Source of the DNA: Cellvibrio zantedeschiae
Lineage (GTDB): Bacteria > Pseudomonadota > Gammaproteobacteria > Pseudomonadales > Cellvibrionaceae
DNA: 64,000 nucleotides
Assembly (NCBI RefSeq): GCF_014652535.1
Contig: NZ_BMYZ01000001.1
Span: 124,001 to 188,000, forward strand
Reading direction: 5' to 3'
Shown: positions 15,201 to 19,633 of the stretch, one piece after another
Numbering within the stretch: position 1 is the first letter of the stretch
Layout of the letters: the number at the start of each line of letters is the position of its first letter
Translations under genes and position numbers: made by a program
The notes under the pieces: generated by a model
The model's input: only the letters and a program-made list of their open reading frames with translations
What the model was told of the DNA's origin: nothing
The model's database searches: none

Positions 15201-16156
15201 TTCTTATAGGCAATTCCACCAAACAAAGATGCAATTACAAGCATTAAACCAAGGATGTAGTAATAACCATAATGCCAATGCAGCTCAGGCATATTGTCGA
15301 AATTCATTCCATATATACCAACTATAAAAGTCAGCGGAACAAAAATCGCGGTAATTATCGTTAGCACTTTCATGGTGTTGTTCAGTTGGTGCGAGCTGAT
15401 AGATAAGTAGCCGTTAATTAAATCGCCGCAAATTTCAAAATACATTGTGCACAAACTGTTTAGGCGCTCGCAGCGTTCAAATAAATCTTGCAGGCCGTGC
15501 TCAATGTCTCCGTCTTCATCAATCAATCGTTGTGGAATATCTTTTAACAGATTGGTTACTAAACGTTCGTGGTAGCTAAAAATTCGTTTAAGTTTGCGCA
15601 AACGTGATTTATAGGCGATAAGCTCGCGCATAGTTTCATCGTTCGGTTTTTCTTGCATTGAGTCTTCCATTTCATTCAGGAAGGGCTCGAACTCCAAAAT
15701 TGAATCCAGATAGCAGCCCACAGAAAAACGCATGATTCTGGATGCTAGCAAGCCTGGGCTTACTAGCAAATTTTCTTGTTGTGCATGCTCCCAAAAATAA
15801 GAGACGCCGCGCGAAGGCCGTTGGTGACAGCTAATAAGGCAACGGTCACCGGCAAACAATGCGATGGTCATTTGTTTGAAGGTTAAATCTTTCTTAAATT
15901 CACTTAAACCGCGGTACAAAATTAAGGTGTAGTTATCAAAGGTTTCAGTTTTTGGTGGATGGCGATAGCGCTGAACATCTTCAATCGCAAGTTGATGGCA
16001 ATCCAATGACTGTAAAATAATTTTTTCATCAGCAGGGCGTTCGCCTTCCAAATCAATCCAGATAAATCCGCTTGCTTCTTCGCGCCAACGAGTAATTAGT
16101 TCCTCGCCGCCAGTTAGCCATTCACCATTTGAGGTTAAAAGTTGGGTGCGTATCAT
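15191..16156 (-). CDS. CorA/ZntB-family divalent metal transporter
   Basis: A 321-aa protein with a large N-terminal cytoplasmic domain and two C-terminal membrane helices. The signature YGMN (282-285) sits at the end of the first helix, followed by the periplasmic loop FDNMPELHWHYG and a last helix ending AYKKWW. The family forms pentameric channels for Mg2+, Co2+ or Zn2+; the substrate cannot be decided from sequence. The ATG overlaps the cca stop by 4 bp. Confidence 0.88.
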   Translation of the reverse strand: MIRTQLLTSNGEWLTGGEELITRWREEASGFIWIDLEGERPADEKIILQSLDCHQLAIEDVQRYRHPPKTETFDNYTLILYRGLSEFKKDLTFKQMTIALFAGDRCLISCHQRPSRGVSYFWEHAQQENLLVSPGLLASRIMRFSVGCYLDSILEFEPFLNEMEDSMQEKPNDETMRELIAYKSRLRKLKRIFSYHERLVTNLLKDIPQRLIDEDGDIEHGLQDLFERCERLNSLCTMYFEICGDLINGYLSISSHQLNNTMKVLTIITAIFVPLTFIVGIYGMNFDNMPELHWHYGYYYILGLMLVIASLFGGIAYKKWW

Positions 16157-17400
16157 GTTGGCTCAATAGTTTTGTGGTTAGAGTTGTTTTTATATTCTGT
16201 TAATTTTGCAAGGCGCAAGCGGTTAATTTCGTCGCCAAAATCTTTGCCTGTGAATCCGCGCGCGCTTATATCTTTTACATCAATTTGCTGGCTGACAGCC
16301 AAAGCACCGCTAAAATATTCTGCTTGTGGGTATTCGCGATTTTCAAAACCAGTGCGGCCGCGTGCATCTGCTTCACAGCACATCAAAAATTGTGCGAAGC
16401 GTTCCGGGCGACGAAATGAATCTGTTTGTTGCAACACTTTTAACAAGGTTGCCGGTTTTAATTCAAGTGCGCGATGGCAGTGGGTGTGAAATTGGGCCAC
16501 CATAAGTGACAGCTCTTTATATTCCTTTGGCGCTGCAATGCGTCCGCACAACTGTTTAACCAACGGCAGGCTTCTATCTTCATGAGCGATATGGCGTGGC
16601 CATTCATGTTCGGGTGTCGTGCCTTTACCTAAATCATGTAGCAGGGTGGCAAAACGAACGACGGTGCTGTCAGTCATTTTGGCAGCTTGCTGAAGACTCA
16701 TAAGCGTATGAATACCCGTGTCAATTTCCGGGTGATGTGTTGCTGTTTGCGGTACGCCAAAGAGCGCATCTATTTCCGGAAATAAACGTGCGAGAGCGCC
16801 GCAATCGCGCAAGCTTTGGATAAAGATATCAGGCGCAGCTTCGCCTAAAGCGCGTTCCATTTCCTTCCACACGCGTTCAGAAACTAAGTGATCCACTTCA
16901 CCGTTATCTACCATTTTCCGCATAAGCGCATTGGTTTCATCAGCAATAGTAAAACCTAAGTGGTGATAGCGCGCGGCGAAACGGGCGATACGTAAAATTC
17001 GCACGGGGTCCTCTAAAAATGCATCGGACACATGGCGTAATTTTTTATGGACAATATCTTGTTGGCCACCGTAAGGGTCAACAATATTTCCGTGCTCATC
17101 TTCAGCCATCGCATTGATGGTGAGATCGCGGCGAATTAAATCATCTTCCAATGTGACATCTTCACCGCAATAAAAACTAAAACCCGCATAGCCGCGGCCG
17201 GTTTTTCGTTCGGTGCGCGCGAGTGCATATTCTTCTTTCGTTTTAGGGTGTAAAAAAACGGGGAAATCTTTTCCTACGGGAGTGAAACCTTGTTGCTCCA
17301 TTATTTCAGGTGTGGCACCTACCACTACCCAATCTTTTTCATGAAAAGGGTAGCCGAGTAATTTGTCGCGCACTGCGCCGCCAACGAGATAGGTTTTCAT
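16153..17400 (-). CDS. cca: Multifunctional CCA-adding tRNA nucleotidyltransferase
   Basis: A 415-aa enzyme that builds or repairs the CCA end of tRNAs. The start at 17400 gives the canonical MKTYLVGGAVRDKLLGYPFH; a frame extending to 17541 is not native. The catalytic carboxylates are in EKDWVVVG, the flexible loop RRDLTINAMA follows, and the neck has VRILRIARFAARY. A C-terminal HD domain (LLHDLGKG) indicates the enterobacterial-type enzyme with added phosphatase/phosphodiesterase activity. The length is close to E. coli Cca (412 aa). Confidence 0.96.
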   Translation of the reverse strand: MKTYLVGGAVRDKLLGYPFHEKDWVVVGATPEIMEQQGFTPVGKDFPVFLHPKTKEEYALARTERKTGRGYAGFSFYCGEDVTLEDDLIRRDLTINAMAEDEHGNIVDPYGGQQDIVHKKLRHVSDAFLEDPVRILRIARFAARYHHLGFTIADETNALMRKMVDNGEVDHLVSERVWKEMERALGEAAPDIFIQSLRDCGALARLFPEIDALFGVPQTATHHPEIDTGIHTLMSLQQAAKMTDSTVVRFATLLHDLGKGTTPEHEWPRHIAHEDRSLPLVKQLCGRIAAPKEYKELSLMVAQFHTHCHRALELKPATLLKVLQQTDSFRRPERFAQFLMCCEADARGRTGFENREYPQAEYFSGALAVSQQIDVKDISARGFTGKDFGDEINRLRLAKLTEYKNNSNHKTIEPT

Positions 17401-17543
17401 AATCGTGCCTGATGAAATATGGGACGAGTATAGGGGATTTACTCTTATAAAAAAATATTCAAACTTTTTATAACTACAGGGGTTGAGAAAGTTATAAGTA
17501 TCCTTTAGAGTCAATGATCTTAAATGTTCAGAAATTAACAATT

Positions 17544-17639
17544 ATGTCTCTACATTATTCCGCTAAACGAATTTGCGCCCTACGACCCCTATTTTGGGCA
17601 GTCGTCGCATTTTTATTTGCGGAATTTGAGCGAGAGTGA
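17544..17639 (+). CDS. Possible leader peptide (31 aa, aromatic-rich) upstream of EamA transporter
   Basis: A short open frame starting ATGTCTCTACAT encodes MSLHYSAKRICALRPLFWAV and then VAFLFAEFERE. It has Phe codons at 17, 23, 25 and 28 and Trp at 18. No strong Shine-Dalgarno precedes it, which lowers confidence. Its last codons can base-pair with the 5' arm of the following terminator: 17618-17622 with 17670-17674, and 17625-17629 with 17663-17667. A ribosome reaching the stop would mask that antiterminator. This is the layout of amino-acid attenuation leaders. Confidence 0.4.
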   Translation: MSLHYSAKRICALRPLFWAVVAFLFAEFERE

Positions 17640-17697
17640 TTGATTTAAATATTCTCTGATTTTCAAAGGCCGCAGCATAAAACCTGCGGCCTTTTTG
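17617..17697 (+). promoter_or_regulatory. Terminator/antiterminator pair (candidate attenuator)
   Basis: The terminator is an 11-bp stem (AAAGGCCGCAG 17665-17675 / CTGCGGCCTTT 17684-17694), loop CATAAAAC, then a T run. No annotated gene lies upstream on this strand to need it. A competing helix can form between TGCGG-AA-TTTGA (17618-17629) and TCAAA-GG-CCGCA (17663-17674): two 5-bp helices around a 2x2 internal loop that use the terminator's own 5' arm. The pairing is seen directly; regulation is inferred. Confidence 0.55.
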
Positions 17698-17785
17698 TTT
17701 TCATAAAAAATTGCCGCGTGTTTTCTCTTGCAGCCCTAATAACTCGCAATAACGATTTTATTGCGAAAAAACAAGGAGCAGGCGC

Positions 17786-18733
17786 ATGGCAGTTTTACTC
17801 GCATACATATCGGTGGTGCTCATTTGGGCCACTACACCTCTTACTATTCAATGGAGTAGCCATAGCTTAAGTTTTATCGCTGCTGTGTTGTTGCGTATGG
17901 CTATTGCGCTTGCAATTGGCCTTGTTATTAATGCGGTATTGCGTCGTAAACTCTTTGCGCAAGCCAGAGCCTGGCAAGTTTATGCTGCTGGCGCTATTGG
18001 TATTTTTCCAAACATGCCAGTGGTCTATTGGTCCGCACAATTTATTCCATCTGGTTTAGTTGCGGTGGTATTTGCTATGTCGCCTTTTGTAACTGGGTTA
18101 ATGACATTGGTTTTGCTGAAACATAATCCTTTCAGCGCGCGGCGTGTCTTCGCATTGTGTTTGGCGCTCACAGGATTGGTGGTTATTTTTTATCACCAAT
18201 TACAGTTTGATTTGCGGGCAGCTTATGGCGTTGCGGGAATTTTGCTGTCGTGCTTTTTGTTTTCTTTTAGTAGCGTTTTAGTCAAAAAGCTGGATGTAAA
18301 AGTTGATGCCTTTAGCCAAGCGTTAGGAACACTGTCATTTGCCCTACCTTGTTTGTTGGTGACCTGGTGGTTTATGGATGGGCATATTCCCACTAGTGTT
18401 TCGATGAAATCGCTGGCTGCGGTGGGCTATCTCGCGATATTTGGATCGCTGGTGGGGGCGGCGTTATTTTTTTACGTCCTGGCAAATATGTCACCTACTG
18501 CCGTGTCGCTCATTACGTTTATGACCCCGGTATTGGCATTAATTCTAGGAGCATGGGTTGGGCATGAAACACTCGGGTTGCAGCTGTGGACGGGAGCCGG
18601 TTTGGTAGTAATAGCTTTGCTGCTCTATATGGATTTGTCATCTGGCGGCTGGTTTTTCTCTGCGTTACGCAGAAATATTTTCCGAACCGAACCGCTGAAC
18701 TTGGTAAAAGCCCATGTGGATAAATACAAGTGA
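17786..18733 (+). CDS. EamA/DMT-superfamily transporter
   Basis: A 315-aa inner-membrane protein with about ten hydrophobic segments in two EamA repeats (first from LAYISVVLIWATTPLTIQWS, second from GVAGILLSCFLFSFSSVLVK). DMT exporters such as RhtA and YddG move amino acids or other metabolites. A GGAGC ribosome site precedes the ATG. The upstream leader has the form of an attenuator with Phe/Trp codons, which hints at an aromatic amino acid or related substrate; that is inference only. Confidence 0.88.
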   Translation: MAVLLAYISVVLIWATTPLTIQWSSHSLSFIAAVLLRMAIALAIGLVINAVLRRKLFAQARAWQVYAAGAIGIFPNMPVVYWSAQFIPSGLVAVVFAMSPFVTGLMTLVLLKHNPFSARRVFALCLALTGLVVIFYHQLQFDLRAAYGVAGILLSCFLFSFSSVLVKKLDVKVDAFSQALGTLSFALPCLLVTWWFMDGHIPTSVSMKSLAAVGYLAIFGSLVGAALFFYVLANMSPTAVSLITFMTPVLALILGAWVGHETLGLQLWTGAGLVVIALLLYMDLSSGGWFFSALRRNIFRTEPLNLVKAHVDKYK

Positions 18734-18958
18734 TCCAATTTGGTGCGTATCGCAATCTGCTAGTGCGGTTTTGTGCGCTAATATAGTGCCGTGCCGAGTA
18801 TTTTATTTAGTATGCAAGATGGTATTCGAATTTTAAGCTAATGATTAATAAAGGAAATATAAAGTTGGCGTGCTATCTGCAAAGTTACAAGCATGTCGTT
18901 CTAATGGTTCGGCTGCCTCAAAAAACTAAATGTAGAAACATACTGAGAGGATTTACTC

Positions 18959-19633
18959 ATGAAGATGAAAAAATTAGTTGCTGCTTGTGCCGCGTTGTCT
19001 GCCATGGCTGGTTTTGCTGTTCCTGCTGCGCATGCTGATGTTGCCGCGACCGTTGGTGTATCCAACATGTACTACTGGCGTGGTTTTGATTTGGGCGGTG
19101 GCGCGGCCTTGACTGCTGACGTGAATGTGAGCGGTAACGGCTTTGTTGCTGGTGTATGGACATCATCAGGCGACGGTACCCTGGGCACTGAATATGATCT
19201 TTACGCTGGTTATTCAGGTAAAGCAGGTGATTTTACCTACGGTGTGAGTTTGGTTTCGTACAACTATCCAACTTTAGGTGATGACTCAATCGCTCCAGGT
19301 GATTACGTGGAAGTCGTCCCGACCATCGGTTATGGACCATTCAAACTTACCTATTACGATGCGATTGCTGCAGACCATTCACCGCTGGGAGATAAAACAT
19401 ACAATTATCTTACTGCGGAATTGATCTTTGAAAAATTTGCAATCAAGTACGGCCGTCATTCTCAAGATAATGGTGGAGAAGGTACTTTGGACGGTGTATC
19501 TCACCTTGACGTGACTTACAAATATAACGACAAGCTGAGCTTTACCGTAGGTTCGTTGTTAACTGTAAATGACTTTGATGCACAGGAAAAAGAAGTTAAC
19601 TTCGTTGTTGGCCTGACTTTGCCAATCGAATAA
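18959..19633 (+). CDS. TorF-family putative outer-membrane porin
   Basis: A 224-aa protein with a Sec signal peptide (MKMKKLVAACAALSAMAGFA, cleavage after AHA). The mature part begins DVAATVGVSNMYYWRGFDLG, characteristic of the TorF/Gcw_chp family of small beta-barrel-like outer-membrane proteins. Alternating strands such as YDLYAGYSGKAGDFTYGVSL and a C-terminal VNFVVGLTLPIE support a barrel. The transported substrate is unknown. A GAGAGGA ribosome site precedes the start. The gene is monocistronic with its own terminator. Confidence 0.82.
   Translation: MKMKKLVAACAALSAMAGFAVPAAHADVAATVGVSNMYYWRGFDLGGGAALTADVNVSGNGFVAGVWTSSGDGTLGTEYDLYAGYSGKAGDFTYGVSLVSYNYPTLGDDSIAPGDYVEVVPTIGYGPFKLTYYDAIAADHSPLGDKTYNYLTAELIFEKFAIKYGRHSQDNGGEGTLDGVSHLDVTYKYNDKLSFTVGSLLTVNDFDAQEKEVNFVVGLTLPIE

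Follow-up and report, generated by a model that had tools for sequence, protein, structure and literature searches.

A widespread leader upstream of EamA-family transporter genes is probably a tryptophan-responsive transcription attenuator

The EamA locus of Cellvibrio zantedeschiae

We analyzed a 64-kb stretch of Cellvibrio zantedeschiae DNA (64,000 nucleotides, hereafter the window), focusing on the region between cca and a gene for an EamA-family transporter (Table 1). The two genes are divergent and, because cca is encoded on the minus strand, no plus-strand gene precedes the strong terminator that stands between them, as an earlier note on this DNA had described. The label "exporter" comes solely from the family name EamA, and the function is putative. 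Scores for 2A78, YedA and YddG all fell below the respective cut-offs; for the aromatic exporter YddG (NF050091) the product reached 27.2 bits vs. a curated cut-off of 300. No homologue with a solved structure was found at E 1e-3. The arrangement in which EamA has a divergent cca on its upstream side and a putative TorF-like porin gene on its downstream side (positions 16156-19633 of the window) was also observed at L030, L044 and L070. The neighbors gave no clue to the substrate, as cca and the TorF-like porin recur within the EamA family and the remaining genes vary.

Upstream of the EamA gene, the window encodes a short open reading frame (uORF) followed by the terminator hairpin (-19.2 kcal/mol on its own). 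The 31-codon frame noted earlier is present, as is the second helix proposed with it (17618-17629 with 17663-17674), which consists of 5 + 5 pairs around a 2x2 mismatch, shares the 5' arm of the terminator and overlaps the last codons of the frame. Thus, terminator, frame and alternative helix can all be found in the sequence. The full antiterminator duplex is longer than the helix first described (17616-17639 with 17649-17676, -19.9 kcal/mol), and a third helix, formed by arm 1 with 17612-17625, had been missed. The leader as a whole (17520-17705) folds much better than shuffled versions of itself (z -5.66, 0/200).

The candidate promoter listed in Table 1 matches the consensus at 9 of 12 positions, which by itself is not above chance. 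It is the sole plus-strand sigma-70-like match in 16800-18800, and a block resembling it is retained in the closest relatives. The sigma-70-like scan detected no plus-strand promoter between the terminator and the EamA gene. An alternative in-frame ATG at 17514, which would extend the uORF to 41 codons, is missing from close relatives.

Table 1. Features of the EamA locus (positions in the window).
Feature	Position	Strand	Description
Candidate promoter	17483..17511	+	TTGAGA 17483-17488, 17-nt spacer, TAGAGT 17506-17511
Leader frame (uORF)	17544..17639	+	ATG 17544, 31 codons, TGA 17637-17639; MSLHYSAKRICALRPLFWAVVAFLFAEFERE; without Shine-Dalgarno
Arm 1	17557..17571	+	Pairs with 17612-17625, 13 pairs; minimum-energy fold
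Putative control codon TGG (Trp18)	17595..17597	+	Spacing of 21 nt to arm 2 and of 42 nt to the stop
Arm 2 (antiterminator 5' strand)	17616..17639	+	Last 7 codons and stop; duplex with 17649-17676
Arm 3	17649..17676	+	Spacer and terminator 5' arm
Intrinsic terminator hairpin (3:4)	17665..17694	+	AAAGGCCGCAG-loop-CTGCGGCCTTT, 11 pairs, then TTGTTTT
EamA-family transporter gene (predicted controlled gene)	17786..18733	+	315 aa; Pfam EamA 94 bits, cut-off 28.2

Conservation and distribution

Leader DNA was matched in 19 of 21 genomes of the genus, with the terminator, including its loop, matching best. In 20 aligned Cellvibrio leaders the gaps come in codon units and every leader contains Trp. 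The pN/pS of the Cellvibrio uORF is 0.67 in its first part; values of 0.67-0.75 correspond to weak constraint. The hairpin core (GGCCGCAG..CTGCGGCC) has a single occurrence in three of the four Cellvibrio genomes tested and two in the other one (0 in the backwards control), and therefore is not a general terminator sequence of these genomes.

Relatives of the EamA protein were found in 42 of 390 genomes of the order (E<=1e-50), 108 of 369 genomes of the class (E<=1e-35) and 73 of 299 genomes of the phylum (E<=1e-30). For the class set, 89 of the 108 matches were examined (the window's own apart), with 19 left out. A terminator lies within 220 nt upstream of the EamA orthologue at 75 of these 89 loci, and at 71 it is combined with a uORF that ends ~29 nt before the terminator; 64 of the 71 uORFs contain Trp. 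When the 75 regions were reverse-complemented as a control, the yield fell to 18 terminators and 3 frames, none with Trp, and a terminator score of >=20, reached by 73 of the 75 regions, was reached by none. By the rule used, 18 of the 89 loci are without the leader, which counts against the attenuator reading. Among 27 new loci examined from the 73 matching genomes of the phylum set, most of which come from another class and share a GWLVARR-like stretch, 23 have the terminator, 21 the uORF and 20 the Trp. The leader is thus widespread, and its sequence features are conserved far beyond the genus.

For the statistics below, 158 loci with a terminator yielded 146 frames, which were grouped into 106 peptide clusters. 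This set includes 14 additional loci from a pattern search that were kept because EamA followed. Loci preceding argD or small-protein genes were excluded from the counts, and near-identical or named duplicates (four per locus group) were merged by sequence or peptide cluster. The choice of frames followed a rule that took no account of Trp.

Covarying helices

Comparison of these loci establishes the common anatomy of the leader, the covariation of its three helices and the placement of Trp and of the predicted promoter. In a swap test, arm 2 of each of the 106 clusters was paired with its own terminator arm and with that of every other cluster. Cognate 2:3 pairing gave -19.8 kcal/mol vs. -16.2 kcal/mol when partners were swapped; with row and column means subtracted, own pairing was 3.6 kcal/mol better (z -12.6, 0/1000 permutations). 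The signal is seen in the order (z -6.1) and class (z -10.9) sets and with the stem alone (z -9.6). Shuffled arm 2 (z -0.6) and the upstream half of the frame (z -1.1) served as controls; reversed arm 2 still gave z -3.3, which counts against the attenuator reading. The other two helices behaved similarly, with z -7.2 for 1:2 over the 106 clusters (shuffled -0.9) and z -23.7 for the terminator 3:4. In a 39-cluster test, for which frames were hand-picked at nine loci and start codons at three, single clusters reached z<-1.645 in only 21 cases for 2:3 and in 17 for 1:2, a further point against the attenuator reading.

The terminator arm occurs as GCCGCAG, GCCACAG, GCCGCGG and GCCACGG, and in many of the displayed examples the partner strands change to match. 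Pairing in the displayed duplexes is broken by single-base bulges and mismatches, and a simple hexamer count was uninformative. The alignment across relatives that had been proposed as a check thus came out in favor of the element: covariation was seen for both helices, and conservation of the frame extends well outside Cellvibrio. These sequences predict that the antiterminator 2:3 is mutually exclusive with the terminator and that arm 1 sequesters arm 2, as in an attenuator. The suggestion that the logic of amino-acid attenuation operates before the EamA gene accordingly gains support from helix covariation and the conserved frame.

Tryptophan in the control segment

The uORF of the window had been described as carrying clustered Phe and Trp codons. 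Of these, only the Trp codon is conserved, and Phe as the signal was rejected, with 22 occurrences in the control segment vs. 21.4 expected. Trp is present in 95 of the 106 peptide clusters (null 51.4), and TGG occurs 129 times in frame vs. 79 and 31 times in the other two frames. The frequency of Trp is 0.4% far upstream and climbs to 16% at a distance of 15-20 nt from arm 2. The segment 8-38 nt upstream of arm 2 carries Trp in 87 of 105 leaders (null 25.7), with 96 Trp residues vs. 28 expected (3.4-fold). Arg (204 vs. 126 expected, 1.6-fold) and Lys (41 vs. 16 expected, 2.5-fold) are enriched in the same segment, so Trp is possibly not the sole signal. From these comparisons, the conserved candidate control residue is Trp, accompanied by basic residues, and not Phe; Arg or charge may have an added role.

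Most clusters (64) have a single Trp, 28 have two, three have three and 11 have none; the Trp-free leaders often carry Arg pairs. A tandem run of control codons, which is common and not indispensable in attenuators of the trp, his and leu type, was not found, a difference from classical leaders that counts against the attenuator reading. Where there is a single Trp (64 leaders), it lies a median of 17 nt (IQR 14-22) before arm 2, a tighter spacing than that to the stop (IQR 36-48 nt) or to the terminator. A ribosome with a codon in its A site covers ~12-13 nt downstream. A ribosome stalled at this Trp would therefore leave arm 2 just free.

Predicted transcript starts

The earlier note saw its weak point in the lack of a clear Shine-Dalgarno. 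This lack is real and general to the leader element, as 6 of 106 frames have a Shine-Dalgarno-like motif in front of them, compared with 8 of 106 for a control window. In 36 of 58 class-set clusters (control 0/57) an exact TTGACA is found no more than 80 nt from the AUG, and in 30 of these 36 a distance of 35-37 nt separates its first T from the A of the AUG. In terms of promoter prediction, as distinct from mapped 5' ends, a score of >=8.5 together with a gap of 5-9 nt was obtained for 41 of the 58 clusters. The usual distance from the -10 box to the transcript start is 7 nt. The promoter placement in the class set therefore points to a transcript start at the AUG. Outside the order of the window, the uORF looks leaderless in most lineages examined, the AUG being the predicted first transcribed bases.

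The order set, which includes Cellvibrio, has a wider gap (48 clusters in all; 5-9 nt in 6 of 25 scored promoters, median 26). In the window, 32 nt separate the -10 candidate from the ATG, which does not fit a leaderless placement, and Cellvibrio seems to retain a ~26-nt 5' UTR, judging from the promoter candidate. The Cellvibrio uORF thus has neither a Shine-Dalgarno nor a leaderless promoter, which counts against the attenuator reading.

Interpretation

We consider it likely that the leader is a ribosome-mediated transcription attenuator in which ribosomes stall at Trp, and that it probably responds to tryptophan. In the model we infer, translation of the uORF, stalling within it, Trp as the signal and read-through into EamA would follow one another. 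RNA polymerase would make the uORF with a ribosome following. A ribosome that reaches the stop codon would cover arm 2, allowing terminator 3:4 to form and preventing transcription of EamA; with the uORF untranslated, arm 1 would hold arm 2 and the terminator would also form. When Trp-tRNA is scarce, or for another stalling cause, the ribosome would stall at the Trp codon between arms 1 and 2. Arm 2 would then be free to form 2:3 before the 3' arm of the terminator is made, and EamA would be transcribed. Folding of the window RNA with a ribosome placed at Trp gave the 2:3 form as the minimum (-18.8 kcal/mol) as long as the terminator 3' arm was not yet made. Once the terminator was complete, it was preferred at equilibrium (-26.6 kcal/mol for 17610-17705), so antitermination must be kinetic. 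Inducing EamA at low Trp-tRNA might serve to take up Trp, to export a blocker of Trp charging, or to relieve an amino-acid imbalance.

The same attenuator could be driven by a nascent peptide or by a drug or metabolite, with Trp and the basic residues acting in the exit tunnel instead of through Trp-tRNA supply. We regard this as unlikely, with some points in its favor: most leaders have a single Trp, Arg and Lys are enriched in the same segment, and EamA-family transporters often handle small toxic molecules. Against it, Arg has no fixed position with respect to Trp, the Trp-stop spacing varies where arrest at the stop codon requires a fixed one, and the closest positional tie of Trp is to arm 2, which is what stalling at a codon predicts. 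That arginine is the main signal and Trp incidental seems improbable. The Arg enrichment near arm 2, the Arg pairs of Trp-free leaders, three argD-type genes whose similar leader contains several Arg codons but lacks Trp, and an EamA gene followed by an argD-like gene (L201) with an Arg-bearing, Trp-free leader would all fit; yet Trp is more strongly enriched and more sharply positioned, and the enrichment of Lys as well as Arg suggests charge rather than Arg codons.

That the terminated transcript constitutes a small RNA in its own right, with a spurious uORF, is very improbable. The strength of the terminator and the high conservation of the hairpin within the genus, loop included, would suit such an RNA, but it would not account for the conserved frame, the in-frame Trp, the alternative pairing and the fixed gene partner in two classes. 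A plain intergenic terminator without regulation can practically be dismissed, since there is no upstream gene to terminate and the antiterminator covaries next to a uORF, even if such palindromes are found elsewhere in the order and not only before EamA.

Returning to the Trp-stalling attenuator, we put forward a broader proposal more tentatively, as quite possible: an ancient attenuator present in at least two proteobacterial classes, with a leaderless uORF and one precisely placed Trp codon, through which EamA responds to Trp-tRNA supply. If so, the EamA transporter would be linked to Trp, either taking it up or clearing a blocker of Trp charging, and the leader would serve as a model of how translation-coupled control works on leaderless mRNA. 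The Trp codon offers a functional clue to an uncharacterized transporter group, and, being single and precisely placed, it is easily probed with reporters. The leaderless start, if real, would provide a natural system in which to study ribosomes following polymerase right from the first nucleotide.

Comparison with known attenuators

The EamA leader resembles Escherichia coli trpL (Rfam RF00513, Trp_leader) in having a uORF with a Trp codon, arms 1:2, 2:3 and 3:4, and an intrinsic terminator. It differs in having mostly one Trp, a longer peptide and an arm 2 that lies inside the coding frame, and in its predicted target, a transporter rather than trp biosynthesis. The leader is not recognized as Trp_leader (17.8 bits vs. 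a cut-off of 41, E 0.48), and the Rfam scan returned no family at the gathering cut-off. TnaC of the tna operon has a single critical Trp ~12 residues from its end and a Trp permease downstream, and works through arrest at the stop codon and Rho. Most EamA leaders share the single Trp; they differ in their intrinsic terminator and variable Trp-stop distance, and we rejected a TnaC-type arrest peptide on these two grounds.

Leaderless polycysteine ORF attenuators of mycobacteria were reportedly described by Canestrari in 2020 (cited in PMC13236596). As far as that account is available, both they and the EamA leader are leaderless short ORFs proposed as amino-acid-responsive attenuators, theirs being for cysteine and in actinobacteria. 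In Sinorhizobium meliloti, according to the available text, rnTrpL starts at the ATG of trpL, which encodes a 14-aa peptide with several Trp codons and controls trpE(G), and efflux genes are a target of the peptide in trans (PMC7298713). Within what that text covers, both leaders are attenuator RNAs that start at the AUG (predicted for EamA, outside the order of the window) and have Trp codons, whereas the S. meliloti one is alphaproteobacterial, targets trpE(G) and has a short peptide with several Trp.

We found no description of attenuation of EamA or DUF6 genes by a leader peptide in the open PMC literature. The sole match for EamA with transcriptional attenuation concerns, in its available text, the production of higher alcohols, and DUF6 is absent from the available text of PMC2965389. 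Leader-peptide attenuators, leaderless ones included, are already known, and EamA as the target would be the new part. The proposed attenuator would extend amino-acid attenuation to an EamA transporter across a wide range of bacteria.

Related leaders before other genes

Upstream of the genome's own trpE (L116) there is a small GTG-start frame, MTNATFTTTECATYLVARWRR, that ends in ARWRR; no EamA-type terminator was obvious by eye at this trpE leader. Terminators similar to those before EamA, with an Arg-bearing, Trp-free leader frame, precede genes at L130/L267, L151/L266 and L168 that we take from their sequences to encode argD-like aminotransferases. Such leaders are possibly arginine attenuators. 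The argD type was found at E<=1e-110 in 4 of 194 genomes, two of which (L268 and L269) are without such a leader. At L201 the argD-like gene follows EamA on the same strand, and the leader has Arg pairs.

Three Cellvibrio-group genomes (L021, L022 and L023) have a second copy of the leader with the same architecture and its own Trp-bearing frame (MYTPRFASKHYAWRSIAIARFALPWRTRR in L022). These second copies precede a gene for a small membrane protein of ~80-90 aa without a convincing Pfam match, and the gene beside it is presumably CheV-like.
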